From contig JARULB010000009.1 of the NCBI GenBank assembly GCA_029688905.1, forward strand, positions 1 through 63,784: a stretch of DNA of 63,784 nucleotides, written 5' to 3'. The notes beneath the pieces were generated by a model. That model was not told the DNA's origin and did no database searches. It saw only the letters and a program-made list of their open reading frames with translations. Made by a program: the position numbers and the translations under genes. The stretch is from Balneolales bacterium ANBcel1. Lineage in GTDB: Bacteria > Bacteroidota > Rhodothermia > Balneolales > Natronogracilivirgulaceae. Positions 34,393 through 63,179 of this stretch are shown in pieces (position 1 is the stretch's first letter; each line of letters begins with the position of its first letter).

Positions 34393-35568
34393 TCAATCCA
34401 GCAATTCGAATTCCTCGCGCATTCCCTCGATCAGTTCCGGAACGGTGAAGAAGGTGCCTTCCAGCCGTTCCTGAAGGGTGGGTACCAGATTAGCTTCCAG
34501 AACCACAACCAGCTCCTGGACATTGTAATTCGTCGAACTGTATCCGAACAGGTATCGAAGTCCGAAGAACCAGCCCGGCAGATCCTTGAGAATCGGAACG
34601 CCGCGGCGCACTTTGGAGGTCTCGGTTTCGTAGAGGCCGCCGATCACGGTTGACTCGCCGCTCAGCATCAGTATCTCCGTATTGGCCTCCTGCTTATTGA
34701 CCACCGTGCTTACGGCACCCGGAGCCGCAGTGCTTCTCTCGGCCTGCACCGTCATGTATATAAAGGGTTGGCCCTGGTGGTAGAGCACGTTGGGGGTCAC
34801 TTCCAGAATGGTTCCGGTACTGAAAAACTCGTCGATCACATTGCCTGCAAAATCACGCTGGCGGATGGAAAAGTCCTGGCCCACCTGAATGCGCCCGGTC
34901 TCCCCGTCCATCACCTTGATGTTCGGCGACGAGAGCACCTCTCCCTTGTTACTCGACTCAAAAGCGTTGAAAAGAGCCGATATGTCCCATCCCGAGCTTC
35001 CGATATCATCCCAGTTCACCTCCACGCTGAAGGCATCTTCGGTCACCTGCGCGGCGGCGACGTTATCCACTCTGACCTTCCCGTTGTGCAGGGAGGTCCA
35101 GTCGATACCCAGTTCCCGTATCAGCTGCCGGCTTCCTTCGAAGAAGGTGGCCTTGATCTCAATTTCCCGGGTATTGAAATCAATGACTCGCTCACCGTTT
35201 CGGCGTACCGGCTCCGCTGCCTCCTGCCGCACCGGCTGCTCCACGATTTCGATCTGCCGCTCCCCCTCCCTCACTACAAGATTGTGATAGGACGCAATCC
35301 GGTCGAGGGCGTCGCGCCAGTGCAGCCTGGGAATCGGTACACCAATGGCTCCGCTGAAACCCGATCGGTCGACGATGGATTTGTTTCTGAAACGCTGGGA
35401 GAGCTCTTCGAAAACAACCAGCGCCTCGGAAAAAGGCACGTTCTCGGTCAGCACCACCAGTTCATCGGGGTGGGTGTACTCCCGTTGCGGCAGCTGATTT
35501 TGTCCCGTCGCGATTCCGGTTGCTGCAAAAACCATCACCCATGCCATAAACCCTGTTATATACCTCAT
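34393..35568 (-). CDS. Short secretin-family protein of the type IV pilus locus
   Basis: This 391-aa protein has a signal peptide (residues 1-22) and a small N-domain (residues 35-110, with VPFSEALVVFEEL). The secretin core follows, with KGEVLSSPNIKVMDGETGRIQVGQ, GTILEVTPNVL, and the hallmark ending GGLYETE... VPILKDLPGWFFGLRYLFG. Secretins form the outer-membrane pore for pili or type II secretion. PilQ is typically 600-700 aa, so this one lacks AMIN and most N-domains. It is the last gene of the pilus operon. Confidence 0.85.
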   Translation of the reverse strand: MRYITGFMAWVMVFAATGIATGQNQLPQREYTHPDELVVLTENVPFSEALVVFEELSQRFRNKSIVDRSGFSGAIGVPIPRLHWRDALDRIASYHNLVVREGERQIEIVEQPVRQEAAEPVRRNGERVIDFNTREIEIKATFFEGSRQLIRELGIDWTSLHNGKVRVDNVAAAQVTEDAFSVEVNWDDIGSSGWDISALFNAFESSNKGEVLSSPNIKVMDGETGRIQVGQDFSIRQRDFAGNVIDEFFSTGTILEVTPNVLYHQGQPFIYMTVQAERSTAAPGAVSTVVNKQEANTEILMLSGESTVIGGLYETETSKVRRGVPILKDLPGWFFGLRYLFGYSSTNYNVQELVVVLEANLVPTLQERLEGTFFTVPELIEGMREEFELLD

Positions 35569-35595: not shown

Positions 35596-36447
35596 TTATT
35601 CCAAATTAAGTGTAACTCTGTCCACAATTCCGCCGCGGTTAAGCTGAAAGACCGCTCGCTGATCACCGGTGTCGATGCGCTGCAAATGGCCGAGATACAC
35701 CGGATCGCCCACCGACAGCCTGCGCACCGCACCGCCCTGATCCTCGACCAGGATATAGCGGGTGGTCATCCCGACCATCGAGCTCTGATCCACGTCCACA
35801 AGGCCCCGTGTATTGGGTGGTACCGGATGGATCAGCGGATAGAAGGGATTGTGCCCGACATTGCCGGCAGAGGCGGGCAGTATCAGGGAAGCGGTATAGT
35901 CCAGACGGTCGTCCCGGTTGTAGTAGGCCTGGAGAGTCATCCGGAACTGGACACGGCTCAGCCGCTCGAGTTCTGTAATATTCCGAATCTCCACCGATTC
36001 AATTTTTATAATGGGACTTCCATGCTCAATGCGGTATATGAAATTGTAGAGGTTCCGGTAATATCCCTCCCCGTCGATGGTCAGATTCAGGTACCCGTAA
36101 TCATCCTGCAGGACCGAGTCGCGGACCGAGTAGTTCAATTCGGTGAAAGAGATACCCCGGTTCAGCTGTTGCAGATAATCATACAGCCGGCCGGCACGGT
36201 TGTCGGTCAGCAGCTCTTTGGGGTGATTTTCCCGGATGTGGACCTGCCTCGCATACTCCATCGAAATATGGTCATACAGCCCGGCCACCTCGGCAAGTTC
36301 GGCGATGTCCTGCTCCCTCTGCTCGCGGGTCTCTTCAAGCTCAACCACCTTTGAGGCATACGTCAAATGAAGAACAAGCCACCCCCCGCCTGTAAACAGC
36401 ACCAGTGCCAGGGTGAGTATCAAGGTATTTCGGATTCCGTAATTCAT
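35596..36447 (-). CDS. PilO-like pilus alignment protein with PilP-like tail
   Basis: The 283-aa protein has an N-terminal membrane helix (residues 9-30), a coiled coil (residues 33-60) and a ferredoxin-like PilO-type domain (to about residue 175). That domain includes LYDYLQQLNRGISFTELNYSV and YYRNLYNFIYRIEHG. The last 80 residues (YILVEDQGGAVRRLSVGDPVYLGHL, then VFQLNRGGIVDRVTL) resemble the PilP/GspC homology-region domain that contacts the secretin. No separate pilP is present, so this looks like a PilO-PilP fusion. It sits between the PilMN fusion and the secretin, the usual MNOPQ order. Confidence 0.7.
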   Translation of the reverse strand: MNYGIRNTLILTLALVLFTGGGWLVLHLTYASKVVELEETREQREQDIAELAEVAGLYDHISMEYARQVHIRENHPKELLTDNRAGRLYDYLQQLNRGISFTELNYSVRDSVLQDDYGYLNLTIDGEGYYRNLYNFIYRIEHGSPIIKIESVEIRNITELERLSRVQFRMTLQAYYNRDDRLDYTASLILPASAGNVGHNPFYPLIHPVPPNTRGLVDVDQSSMVGMTTRYILVEDQGGAVRRLSVGDPVYLGHLQRIDTGDQRAVFQLNRGGIVDRVTLNLE

Positions 36448-36483: not shown

Positions 36484-38172
36484 TCAGGGCATCTCCCGGA
36501 ACCCCGAAACATCTTCAAAATTAAATTCCGGTATATCGGGGTTGAAGCGTTCCTCATCCGACCTGAAATTGTTGACGCGAATGGTGAAATGGTAGACCGT
36601 AGCGCCGCGAATGGTCCCCTCCGTCACCTGAAATACATGGGCGTCGTCAAAAATTTCGGATACCAGCGGGATGCGATGCCGGTACAGGGAGTATCCCTGC
36701 AGATTCAGGTCGTTGCCGGCTGTCTGAAGTGACGTGATCCAGGTGTTCCTGATATCTCCCATCCCCTCGTTGAGCTGTTTTATGGTTTCCGACCACAGCA
36801 GGGTCTGTTCCGAAAGCCCGGTAATCCGTTCATTCATCTCCTGCAGAACCAGTTGCTGCTCCATCAGATGGTTCACCTCGGAGGCAATCGGCTGCAGTTC
36901 GGAGATTCGTGCTTCGCTCAAAGCCACCTGCCGTTCAAGCGACTCCTGCTGCGCGGAATAATCCTGATACCAGTGGTTGATCAGGAACGGCGTGGCGGCA
37001 ATCATTGCGAGCAGCAGCATGCCGTGCCACTCCAGTTTGAACACCCGCTGGCGCTCGCGGACATACTCCGGAAGCAGTGAAAACGAAGGCCATTCGCCCG
37101 TATCCACGCCTGCCGCAGCCTGGGCCGCTCCGATAGCCGTGAGATAGGAGTTGAGCGCGTCAGGGTCGCCGGCCAGTTCCTCCGGCAACAGCAGTTTTTC
37201 CGGATCGGGTTCAAAAAGCTCCACTTCGGTATCACGGAACTTGTCCCGGAAAAAATCACGTGCCTGTTCACCCATTCCGGAACTGTGCACAATCACCAGT
37301 CGCTCAAGTGACGTGACGGTTCCCTTGTCGATTTCAAACAGGACTTTGCTGAAAAGCGTCTGCAGAATATTCCGGTTTTTGGCCCCTTCCCCGATGAGGG
37401 GCATCACCTGCACAATTTCACGGCCCTTCAGAAATACGATGCGGCTGGTCTTTTCGCCGATACTGATCAGACCGGTTGTCTCGTCGTCTGCCAGTTCGTA
37501 ATGCGAGCGCATCAGGCCTGTCCAGATGGCCTCGTCGGGTAGCATCTCACTGATCAGCATTTTGCCTCTATAGCTGGTTCCGGCCAGCTCAACAAGGTTC
37601 AGCAAACTGGTATCCTGGTCGTATGAAACCAGCCATCCCTCGCCATTTTCCCCGACATCCCAGGTATACTGCTCGGTGGTTACGACCTCATTATAGATTG
37701 GTGCCAGCTTGCTGGTAAAAAACTCTTCCCTCTCCCGTTTCTTCATCCTGGCGGGCTGAACATCGCTGAGCGGCTGAAACACCGATCGTCCCTGGGGGAT
37801 GTTGAGGCCCACATACACTCTTCGCCTCCCAAGATGGTGGAAAAACTCGGACACAACCTGATCGTTGCTCTCTTCTTCTGCGGTTTCGAAGACACTTCCG
37901 GAAAGATCCAGCCCCTCTTCATCTTCGTCGGTTTCACTTTCCTCCGAATAGGAAGGTTCCGGTTTGTCCGGCTGCCCCTCCAGGTTAAAAATATCCTCTT
38001 CCGAATCCTCTTTGGTCTCCTCCGGCTGTGATGCCGTCCCCTGATGTATCGTCTGGGGCAGGACCAGTGTCTTGACACTCAACAGCTCCAGCGCGCCTCC
38101 CGCTTTCCCCAGCCGCGCGGCGTAAATCCGGTTGCCGTCGAGGGCAAATCCAATATATTCCCTGGTAGCCAA
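36484..38172 (-). CDS. PilM-PilN fusion protein
   Basis: The 562-aa protein begins with an actin-like PilM domain (IGFALDGNRIYAARLG at the start, GLISIGEKTSRIVFLKGREI in mid-domain). It is interrupted by an acidic insert at about residues 48-105. A membrane helix follows near residue 385 (LLLAMIAATPFLINHWY), then a coiled coil and a PilN-type periplasmic domain ending near residue 545. Normally PilM (cytoplasmic) and PilN (membrane) are separate proteins joined by an N-terminal peptide. The fusion hard-wires that contact. GspL of type II secretion has the same topology, so GspL-like is the alternative name. Confidence 0.75.
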   Translation of the reverse strand: MATREYIGFALDGNRIYAARLGKAGGALELLSVKTLVLPQTIHQGTASQPEETKEDSEEDIFNLEGQPDKPEPSYSEESETDEDEEGLDLSGSVFETAEEESNDQVVSEFFHHLGRRRVYVGLNIPQGRSVFQPLSDVQPARMKKREREEFFTSKLAPIYNEVVTTEQYTWDVGENGEGWLVSYDQDTSLLNLVELAGTSYRGKMLISEMLPDEAIWTGLMRSHYELADDETTGLISIGEKTSRIVFLKGREIVQVMPLIGEGAKNRNILQTLFSKVLFEIDKGTVTSLERLVIVHSSGMGEQARDFFRDKFRDTEVELFEPDPEKLLLPEELAGDPDALNSYLTAIGAAQAAAGVDTGEWPSFSLLPEYVRERQRVFKLEWHGMLLLAMIAATPFLINHWYQDYSAQQESLERQVALSEARISELQPIASEVNHLMEQQLVLQEMNERITGLSEQTLLWSETIKQLNEGMGDIRNTWITSLQTAGNDLNLQGYSLYRHRIPLVSEIFDDAHVFQVTEGTIRGATVYHFTIRVNNFRSDEERFNPDIPEFNFEDVSGFREMP

Positions 38173-38190: not shown

Positions 38191-39420
38191 TTATCTGAGC
38201 AGATCTTTCAATCGCTTTTTGTTGTTTGCGTAGTTCATTGCCTCGTCTACCGAGATCATATGCTGATCCACCAGCCGCTTGAGATCCTGCTCCAGGGTGT
38301 GCATCCCGTATTGGGACCCTTCGGCCTGCATCTGGTAGATCTCCCCCACATTGTTATTTCGGATGGCGGCCCTGACCGACGGTGTCGCGAGCATCACCTC
38401 TTTGGCCAGCACCCGTTTTCCGTCGGTGGTGGGAACCAGCTTCTGACTGACAACACAGGTAATGACATCCGCCAGCCTGTTCCGCACCCGTTCCTGCTCC
38501 CTGACCGGCACTTCACCGATAATCCGGTCAATGCTCTCCATCGCGGAAGCCGTATGCAGTGTGGAGAAGGTTTTGTGCCCGGAGTCGGTGATTTCGAGTG
38601 CGGCGAGAATGGTCTCGTCGTCGCGCAACTCCCCGATTACGATGATATCGGGATCCTGGCGCATCGCCTGTACCACTCCTTCCCGGAACGATGGCACATC
38701 CCGGCCAACCTCGCGGTGGCGGATGATGCTTTTGATCGGGGTATGCACCAGTTCCACGGGCGCAGAAATAATCACGATGTGGGCGGGTGATGTCCGGTTG
38801 TTGGCATCGATGATGGTATCAAGCGTGGAAGACTTTCCCGAGCCGGTGATACCGGTCACCAGTGTCAATCCGTATTTCAGGTAATTCAGGCTCAGGGCCC
38901 GGGCCACCTCGGGATGAAACTGCAGTGATTTGAACGGCCGGATCTCAGTGTCGATTCGTCGCATGTTCAGCGCCAGGTGCTCCAGGTCGAAATACATGTC
39001 GGCGCGAAAACGCCGGTCGGCTCCGTCATCGCTGCGAATGACGTACGAAAAATCGAGGTTGCGGTGCCGAAGCAGGTAATCGAGCTGGTCGTCACTGATG
39101 ATGTTCAGCAGCAGCAGGTCGGTCTCCTCCAGCCGGTAGGAACCCGTACCCGGCACGGGCTTTTTGTTGCCGTGAATCCGGTACCAGACCTGACCGTTGC
39201 ACCCGACCCCGCCGATATCAATATCCGACGCCTCGGCGGGTTCCATCCCCAGCAGATGATGCTCCAGCTCGGAGACGAGATGACCACGCATATCAGCCGG
39301 AAGATCCTCCAGCAGCTGTCGGATTTTTTTAAAGCGATCCACCCCTCTCACATGAGAGATCATGGTCTGAAGCTGCTGAAACACCCCCTCCAATTGTGAA
39401 TTCAAAACCTGCGATCCCAT
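38191..39420 (-). CDS. pilT: PilT-like pilus retraction ATPase with altered Asp box
   Basis: The 409-aa protein has an N-terminal extension of about 60 residues, then a PilT-type N-domain (residues 62-155, ASDIDI... RFRADMYFDL) and the RecA-like motor. Walker A is GITGSGKSST (190-199), Walker B is DIIVIGELRD with Glu264, and the His box is STLHTASAMESIDRII. The Asp box, normally IEDPIEFVH in PilT, reads ISAPVELVH: Glu-Asp is replaced by Ser219-Ala220. PilT powers pilus retraction. The change may alter nucleotide or metal handling, or mark a PilU-like partner. It lies between the PilMN fusion and pilin-like genes. Confidence 0.82.
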   Translation of the reverse strand: MGSQVLNSQLEGVFQQLQTMISHVRGVDRFKKIRQLLEDLPADMRGHLVSELEHHLLGMEPAEASDIDIGGVGCNGQVWYRIHGNKKPVPGTGSYRLEETDLLLLNIISDDQLDYLLRHRNLDFSYVIRSDDGADRRFRADMYFDLEHLALNMRRIDTEIRPFKSLQFHPEVARALSLNYLKYGLTLVTGITGSGKSSTLDTIIDANNRTSPAHIVIISAPVELVHTPIKSIIRHREVGRDVPSFREGVVQAMRQDPDIIVIGELRDDETILAALEITDSGHKTFSTLHTASAMESIDRIIGEVPVREQERVRNRLADVITCVVSQKLVPTTDGKRVLAKEVMLATPSVRAAIRNNNVGEIYQMQAEGSQYGMHTLEQDLKRLVDQHMISVDEAMNYANNKKRLKDLLR

Positions 39421-39482: not shown

Positions 39483-40520
39483 TTAGTAGTAGATCCGGTC
39501 CACTACCATTCTTGTTTCATCAAAAATTCCGGATAGACTGTTGTTGATATTATTGAGTGCCTGGCTGCTGTACTGAATGGTGGCATTGCCGGTGAAGTAG
39601 GCATCGCTGCTTTCCGGGTCGTCAATTTCCAGCAGCGCGTTGTCGGAAAACATCATCGCACCGTACACATGCACATTCCCCCGGATGTCGAGTTCACCCT
39701 CGACCAGCACCAGGCCCTGGAACGCGAAATTTCCGCGAAAGTCCACTTTCGATCCTTCCGTAACAATCATGATGCCGGCGGCATTGACATTGTCGCTGAC
39801 CTTGTTGTACCCGTCGAACAGCGTGATCGCCGGATACTCCACCGATCCCAGATCCGTCTGGCTCTGATAGACAGTTGCCTGTGTCTTGTACATTTCAAGA
39901 AACTCGAATACCGTCTGGGCGTTCATATCCTCCTTGTGTATGAAGTCTGGGTCTCCGGTGTATGATGCGTTCCCCTGGTGATTAATCAGGTAAGACTCCT
40001 CATCGACCGCGGCAATACCGGGAACCGCAGCCTCCGGACCCTCCGAACCATCGGGGTTGGTATCATATCCACTAATCTTCGCGTTTCCGCTCAGGTTAAC
40101 TTCGGAACCTGTCCCGTAAAATCCAAGCGCGCCGTCCACCGGTGGTATAATGGTTCCTTCATTGACAAAAGCGAACGATTCGAACTCCCGCCCGTGCAGG
40201 GTATGGCCGGCTCTAACCCTTAAAAACCGGGGAGGAACTTCACCGGGGGCATCGTCGTGGGTATCTACATGCACATTGATATTCATACCGTCAACCGTAA
40301 ACACCCAGGGCGGCGAACCGCTTAGCTGCTGGTCCTGGTCATGAAAAAGGCGGTTCAGGCCCAGTTCCAGGCCGATCCCGGTGGCATTGCGTGCCTGGTT
40401 GACCTCAAATGTCTGCACATTGCCTTCTGTGGCCGACAGCTGCCGCTGATAGACCGCTCTCTGGACCATGCCGAGAATGATCATCGAACCCAGACAAAGT
40501 ATCAGCAGTGCGCGGCCCAT
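39483..40520 (-). CDS. Pilus-associated protein with N-terminal anchor and beta-rich passenger
   Basis: The 345-aa protein starts at the ATG at 40520 (MGRALLILCLGSMIILGM), 28 bp after the previous stop. A start at 40625 would overlap that gene by 77 bp. One hydrophobic helix (residues 3-18) is followed by GNVQTFEVNQARNATGIGLELG, like PilX-type minor pilins. The long C-terminal part has repeated strands such as VNLSGNAKISG, VDFRGNFAFQGLVLVEGELDIRGNVHVYG and AYFTGNATIQY, suggesting a beta-helix. A surface or tip function is likely. No named family recognised. Confidence 0.65.
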   Translation of the reverse strand: MGRALLILCLGSMIILGMVQRAVYQRQLSATEGNVQTFEVNQARNATGIGLELGLNRLFHDQDQQLSGSPPWVFTVDGMNINVHVDTHDDAPGEVPPRFLRVRAGHTLHGREFESFAFVNEGTIIPPVDGALGFYGTGSEVNLSGNAKISGYDTNPDGSEGPEAAVPGIAAVDEESYLINHQGNASYTGDPDFIHKEDMNAQTVFEFLEMYKTQATVYQSQTDLGSVEYPAITLFDGYNKVSDNVNAAGIMIVTEGSKVDFRGNFAFQGLVLVEGELDIRGNVHVYGAMMFSDNALLEIDDPESSDAYFTGNATIQYSSQALNNINNSLSGIFDETRMVVDRIYY

Positions 40521-40548: not shown

Positions 40549-41103
40549 TCAGTGCAGGTGAAGCGGTGTAATTTCCGTGGTACGGGAGGAGCGTCCGAAG
40601 TGCCGGTTGTCGTACCCTTCGGCACTTTCCGTCACCAGCTCCAGTCGAATCTGCCGGATTTCGTCATATGTTGCGGGATCCGGCTCGAAGGTCTGGCGGT
40701 GTTCGTCAAGATACTCCAGTCGAAAACGGGTGACGCCGGCACTCACCATCTGTTGATTGCCGTCAACGATACGGTAAAGCGGGCTGATCGATGGGTTGTC
40801 GGGAGAAACCATCGCTCCCTGGTCGAACTGCCAGCGAATTTCGGTCGGGTCTTCATCGCCTTCAAAATGTGCCCTGAATCGGATCTGGTGGGAATCGGCG
40901 GCGACAACGGGTGCCGACTCCACCCGGTAGCCCATGGCCCGGAAATCTTCGGCAATCAGCTCCAGCACCAGCTCGGCGCGGATATCTGCCATACGGTACA
41001 TCGTCTGCTCCCCTCCTGTCCGCGACACATGGTGATTCAGTGCCAGCAGCGACAGCATGATAAGTCCCGAAATGATGGAGCTGATGATGTATCCCAGATT
41101 CAT
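40549..41103 (-). CDS. PilW-like minor pilin candidate
   Basis: The 184-aa protein begins MNLGYIISSIISGLIMLSLLAL, a short leader and hydrophobic helix as in pseudopilins but without the canonical GFTLIE sequence. A polar domain of mixed beta strands follows (QIRFRAHFEGDEDPTEIRWQF, VTRFRLEYLDE). The start overlaps the stop of the upstream cyclic-nucleotide-domain gene as ATGA. Its position between other anchor-type proteins supports a minor pilin role. Confidence 0.6.
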   Translation of the reverse strand: MNLGYIISSIISGLIMLSLLALNHHVSRTGGEQTMYRMADIRAELVLELIAEDFRAMGYRVESAPVVAADSHQIRFRAHFEGDEDPTEIRWQFDQGAMVSPDNPSISPLYRIVDGNQQMVSAGVTRFRLEYLDEHRQTFEPDPATYDEIRQIRLELVTESAEGYDNRHFGRSSRTTEITPLHLH

Positions 41104-41594
41104 GCAAGGCCTCCGGTGCAGTCAATGAGTTTTCGCTGGAGCCGGGCCACTTTGGAATTCATGGCCGTCAGCCGTTTCTGCTGGATCTCCAGCAGATTCA
41201 TAATAAAGAGCTTGAACACCCGCTCCGGGCGGGTTCGGAAAAAGCGCAGCACAGCGTCCCGCTCAAAACGGATCATGGCACAGTCTGTCTCGGCCTTGAC
41301 CGTTGCGATCCGGAATCCGTTGCTGAAAAGGAACGTTTCACCGATAAAATCGCCGGCGTCCAGTTGTGCCACCTCGATCCCGTCTTTCCATATGCTAAGC
41401 TTGCCGTCGGTGATCAGCCATGCATCGCTGATTTCATCCGAACTCTCCGACAGGATGATTTCACCAGCCGGATAGGTCTCCAGATCCCCTGTCATCAGAA
41501 AACCCCGGAAATCCTCCGGGGCAAACTTTCTGAGCAGGGCGGGAACATTCTTCAGTATCTGCTGGACCCTTTCGTGATTAAGCAGGTTTGTCAT
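41100..41594 (-). CDS. Cyclic nucleotide-binding domain protein
   Basis: Residues 20-130 form a cNMP-binding beta-roll: FLMTGDLETYPAGEIILSE, then WLITDGKLSIWKDG and LDAGDFIGETFLF, where the Gly-Glu pair sits in the phosphate-binding cassette. The Arg that contacts the phosphate in CRP is not obvious; the loop reads GETFLFSNGFRIATV. A helical tail with EIQQKRLTAMNSKVARLQRKL follows, possibly a coiled coil. There is no DNA-binding domain. It may sense cAMP, c-di-GMP or nothing, and relays to the pilus machinery. Confidence 0.75.
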   Translation of the reverse strand: MTNLLNHERVQQILKNVPALLRKFAPEDFRGFLMTGDLETYPAGEIILSESSDEISDAWLITDGKLSIWKDGIEVAQLDAGDFIGETFLFSNGFRIATVKAETDCAMIRFERDAVLRFFRTRPERVFKLFIMNLLEIQQKRLTAMNSKVARLQRKLIDCTGGLA

Positions 41595-41681: not shown

Positions 41682-42167
41682 TCAAAAGTAAGTTTTAACA
41701 TATTGCAAACGAACGCTTTGCTCCGATTGCAGCGGCCTGACCCTCGCGGTCAGCTGCTTGCTGAATGTCGGGTGCTGCACAACTTGAAACGGAGGCTCCG
41801 GTTCCACGTAGGTGACGGTCACCTCCAACTCATAAAACCCGAGGCTCGTCTCCACCGTATCCCGGTATCCGTGAAAGTGGTCGAAAACGGCAAAATCGCC
41901 GCGGCTCATATGCTCCGCCGCACCCAGCTGTTGCCGAAATCCGCCGGGGAGCGTTTCCGGATCCACACCGGTCAACAGCACCTCGTCAAATGGCTTGCTT
42001 CGGGCTTCATCTACGATAGACTGTGCCAGCGCGATGCCCGTGTTCTCATATTCATGATCCACGATCATCTGGTCGCTGTGCACCACAAAGTGATTTGCCT
42101 GTAAAACCAGTACAGAGAAAATCACAATGGAGGCCATCGCAAAGAAAAGGTCCGAAACGTCGCTCAT
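41682..42167 (-). CDS. PilV-like minor pilin candidate
   Basis: The 161-aa protein has an N-terminal hydrophobic helix (residues 8-24, FFAMASIVIFSVLVLQA) after a short leader. It continues YENTGIALAQSIVDEARSKPFDEV, the pattern of PilV/GspI pseudopilins (alpha helix, then AxxxA..A...KPFDE). A beta-type C-terminal half ends LQYVKTYF. The canonical Gly-Phe-Thr-Leu cleavage site is missing. It is the first gene after pilB. Confidence 0.6.
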   Translation of the reverse strand: MSDVSDLFFAMASIVIFSVLVLQANHFVVHSDQMIVDHEYENTGIALAQSIVDEARSKPFDEVLLTGVDPETLPGGFRQQLGAAEHMSRGDFAVFDHFHGYRDTVETSLGFYELEVTVTYVEPEPPFQVVQHPTFSKQLTARVRPLQSEQSVRLQYVKTYF

Positions 42168-42329: not shown

Positions 42330-44105
42330 TTAATCTTCAAGCGTTGTCGCTACAATTTCATCGATAGTAGTAGTGCCGCTTTTGATCCGCTCCCGGCCCG
42401 ACGCCCGCAGGGTGAGCATTCCGTTTTCCTGCGCCTGGCGGCGAATCCGGTCTTCGTCGATATCCGCACCCGATTCAAAGATGATGTTCTTGATCTCCTT
42501 GTCGAAGTAAAGCGCTTCGTGGATAGCCACCCGGCCCTTGAACCCGCCGTTGCACTTTTCACATCCCACCGGTTTGTAAAAGGTGGTCTGCTCAATTTCT
42601 TCATCGGTGAAACCGAGGTTTTTGGGCAGCTCCGGATTGAGCTCCTCCATCGGCACCTTGCAGTTTTCGCACAGCCGGCGCACCAGCCGCTGGGCCATCA
42701 CCAGATTGATGGCGTTGGCGATCAGAAACGGCTCCACGCCCATCTTGAAGAGCCGGGCAACGGCGCTGGGCGCATCGTTGGTGTGTAGGGTGGAGAAGGT
42801 GAGGTGCCCCGTATTGGCCAGTTTAATGGCGATTTCGGCGGTTAGCAGGTCACGGATCTCGCCGACCAGCACGATGTCGGGGTCGTGCCGCAGAATCCCC
42901 CTCATGGCGTTGTCGAAGGTCATGTGATCGGAGATCTTGAGCTGGCGCACGCCACGAATCAGGTATTCCACCGGCTCCTCAACCGTCAGTACATTTACGG
43001 TAGGGTCGACCACGGTGTACAGGGCCGCCACAAGGGTGGTTGATTTACCACTTCCCGTCGGACCTGTAATGATCACAATACCCGAAGGCTTGTGGATCGC
43101 CTTGTAAAAGTCTTCGTACGCTTTTTCCTGCAGGCCCAGCTTGTTCAGGTCGGTGATCACCTTGCGGTCGTCGAGCACCCGGATAACAATGGACTCGAAC
43201 TTGCGGTCGAACTCTTCCCCGACAATCGGCATGATGGAGACGCGATAGCGGATATTGTGGCCGTCCACCCGCCGCTGGATGAAACCGTCCTGCGAGGAAT
43301 CCCGCTCAAACCGGTCGATATTCCGGCTTTTGTCCTTCACAACGGCGGCCAGCGCCTCGGGCTTCATGTTGGTCTGCGAGAACCAGAGCCGCAGCTTGCC
43401 ATCCACCCGAAACAGGATGTCGGTCTTGTTGCCCGCCCCCGGAATCACATGGATGTCGCTGACGTCCCGGCGCACCGCCTCCACCAGCATCCCCTCCACC
43501 AGCGAGTTGAGCATGCTCTGGTTGATCTCGGCGTCGAGCTCCTCCTCGTTGATCACCTCGTCCTGGAGATCCTGATCTTCGTAGTCGATCTCCTCGAGAA
43601 TTTCCAGAAACTCGTTTTTCTGCTCATACACCTGGCTGATGATGGACTGGATGGTCTCCAGCCGGCAGTAGACCAGCTCGTAGTGCTTGTAGGGCAGTTC
43701 CCGCGCGTACTCGGTGAGTTCCGGATCGGTCGGATCGGCGGTAGCCAGCACCAGCCGGTTCTTCCGGATTTCGAGCGGTATGGTGCTTCGGTGGATGAGT
43801 TCCTCGGCAAGCTCTTCGGGGAGCTCGCGGATGTTGTTTTTGATGGCCTCCAGATTCAGCTCTTGCAGGCTCCCGTTCGTGAGCACTTCCCGGAAAGCGT
43901 ACAGATCGGCAATCGTACGCATCACTTCGTGCCGGTTGACTCCAATGTCCTCAATGATGATGGTCCCCAGCCTGCGGCGTACCGAATCCGGCTCCGCTTC
44001 AAAAATCCTGATGGCGCGCTCCAGCTGGTCGTGGTCGATGATACCCTTGCCGACCAGCGCTTCGCCGATATGCCTTCGTACGTTGGATGTAACTGACGAA
44101 CTCAT
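42330..44105 (-). CDS. pilB: Type IV pilus assembly ATPase PilB
   Basis: PilB/GspE powers pilus extension. The 591-aa protein has the N-terminal MshEN-like domain, Walker A GPTGSGKST, Asp box VEEPVEY, Walker B IVLVGEIRD and the His box STLHTNDAPSAVARL. The zinc tetracysteine is formed by CENC and CEKC flanking PKNLGFTDEEIEQT. I start at the ATG at 44105 (MSSSVTSNVRRHIGEAL) rather than 44159. The intact motor here contrasts with the odd Asp box of the PilT-like protein. Confidence 0.92.
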   Translation of the reverse strand: MSSSVTSNVRRHIGEALVGKGIIDHDQLERAIRIFEAEPDSVRRRLGTIIIEDIGVNRHEVMRTIADLYAFREVLTNGSLQELNLEAIKNNIRELPEELAEELIHRSTIPLEIRKNRLVLATADPTDPELTEYARELPYKHYELVYCRLETIQSIISQVYEQKNEFLEILEEIDYEDQDLQDEVINEEELDAEINQSMLNSLVEGMLVEAVRRDVSDIHVIPGAGNKTDILFRVDGKLRLWFSQTNMKPEALAAVVKDKSRNIDRFERDSSQDGFIQRRVDGHNIRYRVSIMPIVGEEFDRKFESIVIRVLDDRKVITDLNKLGLQEKAYEDFYKAIHKPSGIVIITGPTGSGKSTTLVAALYTVVDPTVNVLTVEEPVEYLIRGVRQLKISDHMTFDNAMRGILRHDPDIVLVGEIRDLLTAEIAIKLANTGHLTFSTLHTNDAPSAVARLFKMGVEPFLIANAINLVMAQRLVRRLCENCKVPMEELNPELPKNLGFTDEEIEQTTFYKPVGCEKCNGGFKGRVAIHEALYFDKEIKNIIFESGADIDEDRIRRQAQENGMLTLRASGRERIKSGTTTIDEIVATTLED

Positions 44106-44211
44106 CACTGCTTTTAGAAACCTGTGTGTTTTGTGTGGCTGATGGCGTCCCGTCATCAACGGGAGCCGTTTGTAAACGCGTCACCTGCCGATAGTCCGGC
44201 GGCAGTGCCGG

Positions 44212-45540
44212 TTAATTGGGCTGGATCAATGCCGATTCGGAGGAGACCACCGTGATTCCGATGAGGGCGACCATGATAAACAGGTTGATGCCCAGGTTGA
44301 CCATGTCGACCACCGCATCCATCTTGTAGGTGGTCTGCGATTCGTAATACTCCGACAACTGGTAGGCGTTCTGCTTGAGCGTGCCCGATTCGGCGCCCAG
44401 GCGAAAACGGCTCAACGCCGACTGTGGAAACACGCCGGTTGCCTCCAGCGACTCCAGCAGCCCCCTGCCGTCGTCGAGCATCATCCGGATGGCGACATCC
44501 TTGATCCGTTTTTCGATATGAGTGTTGCGGCACGCCTCGGATGCAACCCGAATGACCTCGATGTTTTGACCGGAGCCGCTGTAGAGCGTATAGAACACCC
44601 GTGAAAAGATTTCGATACTGGTTTTGTGAAGCAGGTCGCCAATAACCGGAAGGCGTAACAGGTTGCGGTCGAGCCAAAGGCGTCCGGTGGCCGACCGGAT
44701 GAATGCCAGAAAACCGGCGATCGGGAGCACATGGGCTAGGGTGACCAGGATCCAGTTGGCTTTGAGCCAGTTACTGAAGTCCAGGGTGGCGGCGGTCATC
44801 GGCGGCAGCGCGATATCGAATTCCAGGAACATCTCGGCGGTCTGGGGGAAGATGTAGCCGACGTAGAAGATGATGACCAGGATCACCGCGATGAAGGTGA
44901 TCACCGGCATAAGCAGGGCGCGGCGCATGTTTTTGCGGAATGTGGCGTCCCGCTCCATAAACTTGGCGGTGCTTTCGAACACCTCGGCCATGTTACCGCT
45001 TGTGGAAGCGACGCTGAGCATGTAGGCGGCAAACCGGCCGAAAATACCGCTGTGCTTGCCGTAGACCTGCTGTCCCTCTTTGCCGTCGCGCAGGTCTTTC
45101 TGAATTTCCCGAATCACCTCACGCATCCGTTTGTTGGCCGTATCGGCATGCAGCAGGTTCAGGATCTGGTCATAGGGGAGTTTTTGGCGGAGGAGATCGG
45201 AGGAGAGCCGGATGAAGGTGACCACCTCCTGGTTGGGGACTCCGCCCTTCAGATCGAGCCACTTTTTCCCGATACGGTCGACCTTGAAGCCCATTTTGAT
45301 CAGGGCCCGTTCCACCTCTTCCTTCCGGTAGGCTTCCTGTTCGCCCTCGACCGGGGGCCTGCCCGGTTTCCGCGCCTTGTAGATGAAGACGGTTTTCTGC
45401 TCCAGGGCGCGGATGGTCAGATTCCGTGCCTTCGCCAGTTTTTCGACCCTGGCTTTGGCCTCTTTCCTGCCCGGCGCCTCGAATTCGCTCTGAACAAGTT
45501 TGCCTTGTGGATTTACGCCCTGAAAACGAAACTCAGGCAT
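44212..45540 (-). CDS. pilC: Type IV pilus inner-membrane platform PilC
   Basis: The 442-aa protein has two GspF domains and three membrane helices (near residues 210, 262 and 415), and family motifs LRQKLPYDQIL, SGNMAEVFESTAKFMER, and ESGTLKQNAYQLSEYYE. The N-terminal about 100 residues (PEFRFQGVNPQGKLVQSEFEAPGRKEAKARV) form the usual cytoplasmic lead. PilC anchors PilB and PilT. It lies 106 bp before pilB. Confidence 0.92.
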   Translation of the reverse strand: MPEFRFQGVNPQGKLVQSEFEAPGRKEAKARVEKLAKARNLTIRALEQKTVFIYKARKPGRPPVEGEQEAYRKEEVERALIKMGFKVDRIGKKWLDLKGGVPNQEVVTFIRLSSDLLRQKLPYDQILNLLHADTANKRMREVIREIQKDLRDGKEGQQVYGKHSGIFGRFAAYMLSVASTSGNMAEVFESTAKFMERDATFRKNMRRALLMPVITFIAVILVIIFYVGYIFPQTAEMFLEFDIALPPMTAATLDFSNWLKANWILVTLAHVLPIAGFLAFIRSATGRLWLDRNLLRLPVIGDLLHKTSIEIFSRVFYTLYSGSGQNIEVIRVASEACRNTHIEKRIKDVAIRMMLDDGRGLLESLEATGVFPQSALSRFRLGAESGTLKQNAYQLSEYYESQTTYKMDAVVDMVNLGINLFIMVALIGITVVSSESALIQPN

Positions 45541-45630: not shown

Positions 45631-46062
45631 TCAATTGGCGGCATCGGAAACACTGACGTCCCACTGGCGGGTATCGGTATCCCTGGCAATGGTGACCAGG
45701 ATGGCCGGTCCGCCGCTGGACGGGGTGCCACGAATGGTGACGGCATCGGAGGTGACATCCCCTTCAATCTCATAGGTTCCGTTTTCGTTGCTGAAGGTGC
45801 CGTCGGCATTTTCCCGGGCCGGCAGACGGAGCCGCCGCAGCAGGTCGTCCTCGACACGGGTGAAATCACCGCCGGCGCCGTCCATCATTTGGGGCCTGAC
45901 GTAGACGGTCTGCGCCACGCTTGCCGCGGCCAGCAGATCCTGCCGCACAGCGTCGCGGTTGGCATCGGTAGCCGCGGTTCCGAACACATTAAGGCCGACT
46001 ACGGTCGCGGTACCCACAATGATCGTCACAAGAATGACTAATAATAGCTGCTGTTGACCCAT
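45631..46062 (-). CDS. Major-pilin-like protein 1
   Basis: The 143-aa protein opens with MGQQQLLLVILVTIIVGTATVV. A two-residue leader ends in Gly, followed by a pilin-like hydrophobic helix without Phe at +1 or Glu at +5. A polar head with VRPQMMDGAGGDFTRVEDDLLRRL and mostly Gly/Thr/Asp-rich beta strands follows. It shares nearly the whole N-terminal half with the gene at 46210. It lacks the Cys pair of that paralogue. It lies 91 bp upstream of pilC and probably starts the main operon. Confidence 0.72.
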   Translation of the reverse strand: MGQQQLLLVILVTIIVGTATVVGLNVFGTAATDANRDAVRQDLLAAASVAQTVYVRPQMMDGAGGDFTRVEDDLLRRLRLPARENADGTFSNENGTYEIEGDVTSDAVTIRGTPSSGGPAILVTIARDTDTRQWDVSVSDAAN

Positions 46063-46209: not shown

Positions 46210-46683
46210 TTAATCATTAACAGATGCATCACTCCAAGTGATGTGCCATCCTTCATCTGGTCCATCTGTACCTTCTCCATCAGAGTAGAGAATTGTTGCA
46301 ACTATATTAGCACCACCACTCGCCGGCACGCCAATTATATCAAAACTATCGTCATTCAGGTCACCAATACTGTAGCAACCATTTTCATTGCCGAAAGTAC
46401 CGGTTACGTCATCACAATTGTTATGACCCGAAACAATCGGCATACCCAACCGTTGTAACAGATCAGCTTCAGAAAAATTACTAAAATCACCACCCGCACC
46501 ATCCATCATCACAGGACGCGCATAAATCGCCTGCGCCATGGTGGCACCTTGCAGAATATCCTGGCGTACGGCGTCGCGGTTGGCATCTTCCGCCGCCCCT
46601 CCGAATACGTTCATGGCAACCACTGTTGCGATTCCCACGAGTATCACTACCAATATCACGAGTAAAAGTTGCTGTTGACCCAT
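46210..46683 (-). CDS. Major-pilin-like protein 2, AT-rich C-terminal half
   Basis: The 157-aa protein starts MGQQQLLLVILVVILVGIATVV and is nearly identical to its neighbour for the first half (ANRDAVRQDI, MMDGAGGDF). The second half differs, with a Cys pair (NNCDD, ENGCYS) that could form a disulfide loop. A good AAGGAG ribosome site precedes the start. The C-terminal coding part counts as roughly 42% G+C (46201-46440), against roughly 62% in the matching part of the other gene. This suggests replacement of the exposed region by recombination with foreign DNA. It is followed by a terminator, as expected for a strongly expressed major pilin. Confidence 0.75.
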   Translation of the reverse strand: MGQQQLLLVILVVILVGIATVVAMNVFGGAAEDANRDAVRQDILQGATMAQAIYARPVMMDGAGGDFSNFSEADLLQRLGMPIVSGHNNCDDVTGTFGNENGCYSIGDLNDDSFDIIGVPASGGANIVATILYSDGEGTDGPDEGWHITWSDASVND

Positions 46684-59620: not shown

Positions 59621-60598
59621 ATGTCAACTTTTGGAGATATCAACCGCGTAAATACGAATATTCAGTCGCTGGATTCCCAGCTTTCACTGAACCGGATCAA
59701 CCGGGGAATAGCAGAGAATCAGCTGCGAATGTCAACCGGCCTCAGGATCAACCGCGCCGAAGACGATGCCGCCGGGTACTCCATCGCAACCAAACTGAAC
59801 AGCCGCGTTACCGGCCTCAACCAGGCCTTGCAGAATGTAGGTGACGCCAAGTCCATTCTCGACATTGCCGAAGCCAGCTTCGACACCATTATGGATAACC
59901 TGATCGAGATGAAGGGTCTGGCTACCCAGGCCGCCAGCAACGCGCTTGGCAACGAAGAGCGTGTATATATCGGTGAGCAGATAGGCGGACTCGCCGACGA
60001 TATCAATGAAATCGCCAATCAGACCGTATTTCAGGATTTCGACCTGCTCAACGGAGAGGACGGAGGCTATACCGGTGATCTCAGTCTCACCTTCCAGGTG
60101 GGTGAACGCGTCAACGACACGCTCACCAGTACCATCAGTGCTGTGAATGTTTCCACGCTGTTTGATACTACCGGCGACAATGTCATGGGCTTCACCGCCG
60201 GTGCCGAGGGCACGGCTACCGCCATCGGAAACATTACGATCAATACAACGGAAAGCGTTCAGGGCCGATTGGTATTCAACAGTAATCCCGATGGTAGCGA
60301 CATCTCCGCCGAATCGGATGATTTCCGGGCCTTTCTGGGAGCCATCGACCAGGCGATTGACCGCATGTCGGAGCGTGTCAACCAAATAGGTATCACCCAG
60401 TCGTCGCTGAGTGTGCGCGAGGTGACCCTTTCACAGGGCATTAGCGCCAACCAGTCTGCGGTAAGCCGGATCATGGACACCGACTTTGCCAAGGAACAGA
60501 GTGAGTCCGTGAGGCTCCAAATCCTGCAGCAGACCGCTACCTCGGCCCTGGCACAGGCCAATATGGGTCCGCAGTCGGTTCTCGGATTTCTTGGGTAA
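59621..60598 (+). CDS. Flagellin 1
   Basis: The 325-aa filament protein has the conserved flagellin N-terminus (NTNIQSLDSQLSLNRIN, then LRMSTGLRINRAEDDAAGYSIA) and C-terminus (VREVTLSQGISANQSAVSRIMDTDFAKEQSESVR, QQTATSALAQANMGPQSVLGFLG). The central part is a short variable region (residues 165-235), so D2/D3 are small. It is exported by the flagellar type III apparatus without a signal peptide. It is preceded by a sigma-28-like promoter and has its own terminator. The most divergent of the four copies. Confidence 0.96.
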   Translation: MSTFGDINRVNTNIQSLDSQLSLNRINRGIAENQLRMSTGLRINRAEDDAAGYSIATKLNSRVTGLNQALQNVGDAKSILDIAEASFDTIMDNLIEMKGLATQAASNALGNEERVYIGEQIGGLADDINEIANQTVFQDFDLLNGEDGGYTGDLSLTFQVGERVNDTLTSTISAVNVSTLFDTTGDNVMGFTAGAEGTATAIGNITINTTESVQGRLVFNSNPDGSDISAESDDFRAFLGAIDQAIDRMSERVNQIGITQSSLSVREVTLSQGISANQSAVSRIMDTDFAKEQSESVRLQILQQTATSALAQANMGPQSVLGFLG

Positions 60599-60961: not shown

Positions 60962-61921
60962 ATGTCAAGCTTTGGTGATCTTAACAGAGTGAATACCAAT
61001 ATTCAGTCGATGGATTCACAGCTTTCGCTGAACCGCATCAACCGCGGTTTGGCTGAAAACCAGCTTCGTATGTCGACCGGTTTGCGGATCAACCGCGCCG
61101 AAGACGATGCCGCCGGCTATTCTATTGCAACCAAATTGAACAGCCGTGTCGCGGGCCTGGACCAGGCCCTGCAAAACGTGGGTGACGCAAAGTCCGTTCT
61201 GGACATTGCCGAATCCAGTTTCGATACCATCATGGACAACCTGATCGAAATGAAAGGCCTGGCTACCCAGGCGGCCAACGATACCCTCGGTGACACCGAG
61301 CGGGGATACATTGGCGATCAGATCAAGTCGTTGGGTGATGATATCAACGAAATCGCCAACCAGACTGTCTTCCAGGACTTCGACCTGCTCAACGGTACCG
61401 GCAACACCGGTTCGCTGAGCCTGACCTTCCAGGTCGGTGAGCGTGCTGATGATACGCTGGTAACAAATATATCCGCAGTGAACGTCGGCCAGTTGTTTGC
61501 CGGAAGCACTTCCGGAACTGCTAACCTCGGTGCCGCTACCAGTGGCGGCGGCGGTGTTGCGGATGGTGCGGCGATCACCGCTACCAGTGCCGGTTCCTCC
61601 GAACAGGGCGCATTGGCGTTCCATGATGATGTCACATCGGCCGACTTCCGGTCCTTCATCAGCGCCATTGACAGTGCCATTGACGGCATGTCCGAGCGTG
61701 TGAACGACATTGGTATCGCCCAGTCGTCGCTGAGTGTGCGTGAAGTGACCCTTTCGCAGGGCATCAGCGCCAACCAGTCTGCGGTAAGCCGGATCATGGA
61801 CACCGACTTTGCCAAAGAGCAGAGCGAGTCCGTGCGGCTCCAGATTCTTCAGCAAACCGCAACCTCTGCGCTTGCGCAGGCAAATATGGGACCGCAGTCG
61901 GTCCTTGGGTTTCTGGGATAA
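60962..61921 (+). CDS. Flagellin 2
   Basis: The 319-aa flagellin has N- and C-terminal regions nearly identical to flagellins 1 and 3. The start is MSSFGDLNRVNTNIQSMDSQ and the C-terminal end is ANMGPQSVLGFLG. The variable centre (residues 165-220) is Gly/Ala/Ser-rich. It has its own sigma-28-like promoter. A 44-aa frame overlaps its 3' end (see the next entry). Confidence 0.96.
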   Translation: MSSFGDLNRVNTNIQSMDSQLSLNRINRGLAENQLRMSTGLRINRAEDDAAGYSIATKLNSRVAGLDQALQNVGDAKSVLDIAESSFDTIMDNLIEMKGLATQAANDTLGDTERGYIGDQIKSLGDDINEIANQTVFQDFDLLNGTGNTGSLSLTFQVGERADDTLVTNISAVNVGQLFAGSTSGTANLGAATSGGGGVADGAAITATSAGSSEQGALAFHDDVTSADFRSFISAIDSAIDGMSERVNDIGIAQSSLSVREVTLSQGISANQSAVSRIMDTDFAKEQSESVRLQILQQTATSALAQANMGPQSVLGFLG

Positions 61922-62210: not shown

Positions 62211-63179
62211 ATGTCAAGCTTTGGTGATCTTAACAGAGTGAATACCAACATTCAATCGTTGGATTCACAGCTTTCGCTGAATCGCATTAACCGCGGTTTG
62301 GCTGAAAACCAGCTGCGTATGTCGACCGGTTTGCGGATCAACCGCGCCGAAGACGATGCCGCCGGCTATTCTATTGCAACCAAATTGAACAGCCGTGTCG
62401 CGGGCCTGAGCCAGGCTCTGCAAAACGTGGGTGACGCAAAGTCCGTACTGGATATTGCCGAATCCAGTTTCGATACCATCATGGACAACCTGATCGAAAT
62501 GAAAGGCCTGGCTACCCAGGCGGCCAACGACACCCTCGGCGATACCGAGCGGGGCTACATTGGCGAGCAGATCAAGGCGTTGGGTGATGATATCAACGAA
62601 ATCGCCAACCAGACCGTCTTCCAGGACTTCGATCTGCTCAACGGATCGGATAATACCGGTAACTTGACACTGACCTTCCAGGTCGGTGAACGGGCCGAAG
62701 ATACCCTGCAAACTGAAATCAATGCCGTCAATGTCGGTCAGCTCTTCACCAGCGGCTCCGATGTGAATCTTGGCGCTTCTTCCGGTGGAGCTACCGCCGG
62801 TGGTGCTGCCATTCAGGCAACCGCTGCAACAGCCGGCAGTCAGGGCTCACTGATGTTTACGGCTGGTACCGGGGCCAATGCTCCCGCAGCAAACTCCGCC
62901 GACTTCCGGGCCTTCATCAGCGCAATCGACAGTGCGATCGACAGCATGTCCGAGCGTGTGAACGACATCGGTATCGCCCAGTCATCACTGAGTGTGCGCG
63001 AAGTGACTCTTTCTCAGGGCATCAGCGCCAACCAGTCTGCGGTGAGCCGGATCATGGACACCGACTTTGCCAAGGAGCAGAGCGAGTCCGTGAGATTGCA
63101 GATCCTGCAGCAAACCGCGACTTCGGCCCTGGCGCAAGCCAATATGGGTCCGCAGTCCGTGCTCGGATTCCTCGGCTAA
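62211..63179 (+). CDS. Flagellin 3
   Basis: The 322-aa flagellin shares nearly all of the first 165 residues with flagellin 2 and the identical C-terminal end. The variable centre (residues 170-225) has GASSGGATAGGAA and TAGTGANAPAA stretches. The copy arose by tandem duplication. It has its own promoter and terminator. Confidence 0.96.
   Translation: MSSFGDLNRVNTNIQSLDSQLSLNRINRGLAENQLRMSTGLRINRAEDDAAGYSIATKLNSRVAGLSQALQNVGDAKSVLDIAESSFDTIMDNLIEMKGLATQAANDTLGDTERGYIGEQIKALGDDINEIANQTVFQDFDLLNGSDNTGNLTLTFQVGERAEDTLQTEINAVNVGQLFTSGSDVNLGASSGGATAGGAAIQATAATAGSQGSLMFTAGTGANAPAANSADFRAFISAIDSAIDSMSERVNDIGIAQSSLSVREVTLSQGISANQSAVSRIMDTDFAKEQSESVRLQILQQTATSALAQANMGPQSVLGFLG

Follow-up and report, generated by a model that had tools for sequence, protein, structure and literature searches.

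In the type IVa pili (T4aP) of Thermus, Pseudomonas and Myxococcus, as with HofM and HofN of E. coli, PilM and PilN are two proteins, and the N-terminal peptide of PilN is the part that binds PilM in the solved PilM-PilN complexes. GspL of the type II secretion system (T2SS) carries a cytoplasmic actin-like domain, one helix and a periplasmic ferredoxin-like domain. Pilins, a prepilin peptidase, an extension ATPase and a platform are regarded as the four proteins present in every type IV filament (2023 review, PMC10191384). The ‘T2SS’ of Cytophaga hutchinsonii (CHU_3191-3202) has genes for Peptidase_A24 and a T2S-G pseudopilin; a single ATPase is listed for it, and its L-, M- and C-type proteins are separate (PMC5553014). 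The ‘T2SS’ of Bacteroidetes is reported to branch together with T4aP, and may be a secretion system in its own right whose major pilin is very divergent (Denise et al. 2019, PMC6668835). A fusion of PilM and PilN is described for the T4aP of Clostridioides difficile in a passage of PMC6916266 that cites Melville and Craig (2013).

Here we report an open reading frame (ORF) that very probably encodes a covalent PilM-PilN scaffold (PilMN) of a T4aP-derived pilus machine. It lies in a window of 63,784 nucleotides, the whole stretch of DNA analysed, from Balneolales bacterium ANBcel1, where it occupies the initially annotated positions, 36484..38172, but on the minus strand; the 562-aa product is read from a TTG start at 38172 that is preceded by the Shine-Dalgarno sequence AAAAAGGAG. 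AlphaFold and the sequence recovered all four parts described in the initial annotation, an actin/PilM fold, an acidic insert, a membrane-spanning helix and a periplasmic domain of the PilN type, although confidence in the model of the whole protein, built with eight homologues, was moderate (mean pLDDT 73.6, pTM 0.58). The actin/PilM-like domain comprises residues ~1-357 and is interrupted after its third strand by the disordered insert (residues 43-100; 37873..38046, minus strand; pLDDT ~30), in which 22 of 58 residues are D/E and 2 are K/R. The insert bears a recurring D/E-x-F-x-L/F-D/E motif with F62 invariant in the alignment; the inserts of relatives also contain DMTE or DMTK, and both kinds of motif look like short docking motifs. 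A long helix (residues 369-470) combines the hydrophobic membrane span (residues ~382-402; 36967..37029, minus strand) with a coiled coil reaching ~470, and W382 is invariant in the homologues aligned. Beyond it, at about residues 476-533 (36574..36747, minus strand), models and structure matches place a PilN/GspL-type ferredoxin-like periplasmic domain, and PilN was the sole pilus family returned by a Pfam scan of the fused protein alone (E 0.005, below the cut-off).

The junction between the two halves (residues 361-376; 37045..37092, minus strand) carries what corresponds to the N-terminal docking peptide of PilN, PSFSLLPEYVRERQRV. The hhalign alignment to E. coli HofN begins at HofN residue 3 and pairs PINFLPW, with its NFLP motif, with SFSLLPEY of the fusion, and relatives have INLLP or VNLLP at the same site. 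Because the docking peptide is kept at the junction, the protein is a whole PilM followed by a whole PilN.

The fused gene belongs to a co-directional minus-strand cluster, in whose downstream part it lies. The cluster opens with two leaderless pilin-like genes whose products begin MGQQQLLLVILV; one (46210..46683) has the Shine-Dalgarno sequence AAAAAGGAG just upstream, and the other (45631..46062) is placed by alignment and has no in-frame start codon upstream. These are followed by a PilC/GspF platform protein (44212..45540; PF00482 E 4e-27, above the Pfam cut-off) and a PilB-type extension ATPase with an MshEN domain (42330..44159; T2SSE E 5e-100 and MshEN E 2e-8, both above Pfam cut-offs), which scored 442 bits with TIGR02538 against 413 with GspE, both below the curated cut-offs. 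Two minor-pilin-like genes recognised by synteny (41682..42167, and 40549..41103 with the start MNLGYIISSIISG) enclose a cyclic-nucleotide-binding domain protein (41100..41594; PF00027 E 4e-14), a possible regulator that is syntenic in Balneolales loci. With a stand-alone cNMP-binding protein in the operon and an MshEN domain of the c-di-GMP type in PilB, the machine may be under the control of two nucleotide signals. Next come a PilX/GspK-like minor pilin candidate (39483..40520; synteny, with a probable start MGRALLILCLG at 40520 based on relatives) and a PilT-family, retraction-type ATPase (38191..39420; E 9e-90), for which TIGR01420 was the best match by far at 301 bits against a cut-off of 319.

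Downstream of PilMN lie a PilO-type protein of 283 aa (35596..36447) and a short secretin of 391 aa (34393..35568; PF00263 E 1.7e-29), the latter scoring 84 bits as PilQ against 74 bits as GspD, both under cut-off. The PilO-type ORF matches Myxococcus xanthus PilO (E 3.7e-6 with a profile; Pfam PilO under its cut-off), and ends in an extra conserved domain of ~85 aa (GDxVYLGxLxxI...LNKGGI; 35599-35850, minus strand). We suspected a PilP/GspC-HR domain there and make no such claim, as no PDB, Pfam or hhalign match backed it. The genome encodes exactly two T2SSE ATPases, the PilB- and PilT-type proteins of this locus, and its sole match to PilM_2 elsewhere is FtsA rather than a separate PilM. 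The PilM, PilN and PilO assembly sub-complex of T4aP is represented, with PilM and PilN as one protein, and together with PilB and PilQ models that outscore GspE and GspD and a PilT-family ATPase it indicates T4aP-type machinery; PilO, secretin, PilB, PilC and PilT are likewise the neighbours of the split genes in T4aP. That the complex is a simplified one, as suggested at the outset, is borne out in part: nothing in the cluster was recognised as a separate PilM, PilN or PilP, and the PilO-type protein has its extra domain of unproven type. Elsewhere in the window, three tandem, closely similar flagellin genes on the plus strand (59621-60598, 60962-61921 and 62211-63179) indicate that the organism is probably flagellated too.

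The fusion is phylum-wide rather than local, and it is ancient and apparently invariant. A profile search of the phylum sample matched 96 of 296 genomes, a count that includes one apparently spurious match (G280, 52 residues within a 1271-aa frame) and two genes broken at contig ends (G254 and G097), where each second piece starts at the beginning of a contig and was read as an assembly break and not as a two-piece version; about 93 of the 296 genomes carry the fusion. Homologues of similar length as single ORFs in these 96 genomes and in 8 of 20 family genomes show that the fusion is not due to chance, and no split PilM/PilN pair was seen in the phylum genomes surveyed. Each of 20 distant loci inspected over its whole length has PilMN as one ORF (511-767 aa) with PilT and PilO on its flanks, which rules out a local fusion or an annotation accident, and the order PilC-PilB-minor pilins-PilT-PilMN-PilO-secretin is conserved. 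An alignment-based contig search returned 23 named loci, for the most part from Balneolales or Balneolaceae and including a homologue in Rhodohalobacter sulfatireducens, whereas a search with the single sequence gave no match; matching genomes belong to other classes as well, and no plasmid homologue of the fused protein was found. Some relatives are longer at the C terminus: in one (L064:8890-11157) the tail looks like a peptidoglycan-binding SPOR domain, frames of 750-790 aa with a similar extension occur in three further genomes (G138, G190 and G222), one aligned member matches SPOR with E 3.6e-6, and the secretin of another locus (L065) has a SPOR-like tail.

The reading that the initial annotation itself had set against a fusion is that of an ordinary GspL, the anchor of the ATPase in a secretion machine with a pseudopilus, and the topology of the protein is indeed that of GspL. 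By structure the isolated periplasmic domain also falls somewhat nearer to PulL, XcpY and EpsL (Z 8.2-8.7), with Thermus PilN behind at Z 6.7, so that in this domain fold alone cannot tell PilN and GspL apart, the ferredoxin-like domain being a feature of GspL that is common to PilN; in addition, the PilO-type ORF matches T2SSM_b/XpsM profiles. The cytoplasmic half, however, has the full PilM fold and not the shorter one of GspL: VIA-align gave Z 23.9 to Thermus PilM (2ych, titled as a PilM-PilN complex; 281 residues at 3.3 A) and Z 23.7 to Pseudomonas PilM (5eou, titled PilM:PilN1-12), with FtsA next at Z about 17-19 and EpsL at Z 14.5. By sequence the C-terminal part, whose separate model reached pLDDT 88.5, goes with PilN, as had been supposed: a 25-member profile found M. 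xanthus PilN (E 2.1e-12) and Thermus PilN (E 0.002), and hhalign found HofN (E 3.4e-5), whereas E. coli GspL gave no hhalign match to this part and the T2SSL/GspL_C profiles matched none of 25 homologues of the fused protein. To this and the NLLP motif is added the gene content, since a PilT-family ATPase adjoins PilMN in 20 of 20 loci, while T2SS have a single secretion ATPase and no PilT, and the genome contains neither a GspG-type N_methyl prepilin nor GspO; the partners expected of a T2SS are absent. With sequence, cytoplasmic fold and gene content all against it, we reject GspL as a very improbable identity, and the evidence supports a PilM-PilN fusion.

A second alternative, that the fused protein is the scaffold of a T4aP-derived machine for protein export, like the Cytophaga ‘T2SS’, and not of retractable pili, is unlikely, if a little less so. 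The branching of the Bacteroidetes ‘T2SS’ with T4aP, the short secretin and the divergent parts of the present locus are in its favour, and both are T4aP-related machines of the same broad group. The Cytophaga system differs in having a prepilin peptidase, T2S-G and split inner-membrane proteins, whereas the present one has two ATPases, one fused protein and MGQQQ pilins, and genome profile searches found neither Peptidase_A24 nor a T2S-G pseudopilin.

The candidate major pilins of this machine are unusual in being encoded almost without a leader. All 14 pilins in an alignment drawn from distant loci begin MGQQQLLL, and position 5 is not Glu; 22 of 23 MGQQQ pilins have no alternative in-frame start before the upstream stop, and many of the 23 have a Shine-Dalgarno sequence directly before this ATG. 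The genome, which is 98% complete, contains no prepilins with a class III signal peptide (N_methyl) and no Peptidase_A24 by PF01478 at E<=1; a second profile, built from 14 peptidases of the phylum, gave the same answer and speaks against a peptidase missed through divergence. PilMN and MGQQQ pilins occur together in 93 genomes (discordant cases, 3 and 8). Among these 93, no prepilin peptidase was detectable in 82, and 79 have neither a peptidase nor canonical prepilins; in the other 11 a canonical prepilin always lies within about 1 kb of the peptidase, away from the PilMN gene, which argues that the peptidase follows the canonical prepilins and not this machine. Assembly gaps do not explain the absence, as 11 single-contig genomes with the fusion lack a peptidase (a weak profile match in one of them, G313, E 0.002 inside a 1034-aa frame, was treated as spurious). 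N_methyl genes in three genomes with no detected peptidase (G065, G097 and G194) show that detection is imperfect, and a non-homologous peptidase could exist.

Based on these near-leaderless MG-QQQLLL sequences, the T4aP-derived machine probably needs no prepilin peptidase. We lean, with some reserve, towards a class of type IV filament machines that is spread across the phylum and does without this enzyme. Its near-mature pilins, which lack Glu5, would gain an N-terminal Gly through loss of the initiator Met instead of undergoing PilD cleavage and N-methylation. Methionine aminopeptidase acts when residue 2 is Gly, and may thus supply the free N-terminal Gly of pilins that would enter the membrane in almost mature form. 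Our literature search turned up neither a study of pilins that are leaderless or independent of the peptidase nor a published sighting of a pilus from this system.

The T4aP of C. difficile's group have canonical prepilins and a peptidase. C. difficile resembles the present case in having PilM and PilN in one T4aP protein, a likeness drawn from the published description, and differs in being monoderm and hence without a secretin. A related arrangement probably exists in Akkermansia, since the Amuc_1101 family (NCBIfam NF045709, PilM-like pilus complex protein), whose 608 aa are a similar length, matches residues 363-485 of our protein (E 1.7e-6), although at 27 bits against a family cut-off of 650, and we infer that it too is a fused PilM-PilN. 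The initial annotation presented the fusion as a departure from the T4aP models, which have two proteins and, in contrast to PilMN, no acidic disordered insert in PilM, but with a fusion already documented in C. difficile it is by itself modest news. It is a variation on the T4aP scaffolds already known; the leaderless, peptidase-free machine is the newer claim, and one that was absent from that annotation.

The arrangement is consistent with a scaffold whose PilM half would lie in the cytoplasm and contact the PilB and PilT ATPases and the PilC platform, while one helix would cross the inner membrane and, beyond it, the PilN half would pair with the PilO-type partner, which in turn would lead to the secretin. 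PilMN may in this way anchor the ATPase to the membrane and couple it to PilO and the secretin, in a machine that would form a filament and may retract it. Fusion would fix PilM and PilN at 1:1 and keep PilM at the membrane, with the retained NLLP peptide presumably docking in cis on the PilM groove, and the acidic insert with its conserved Phe motif is a possible docking arm for a cytoplasmic partner.

The covalent PilM-PilN is also a naturally occurring 1:1 construct with which the structure of the inner-membrane complex could be solved. If the peptidase-free machine is confirmed, PilD processing and the Glu5 rule would not be intrinsic to filament assembly, and the purpose of PilD cleavage would become testable by comparison.
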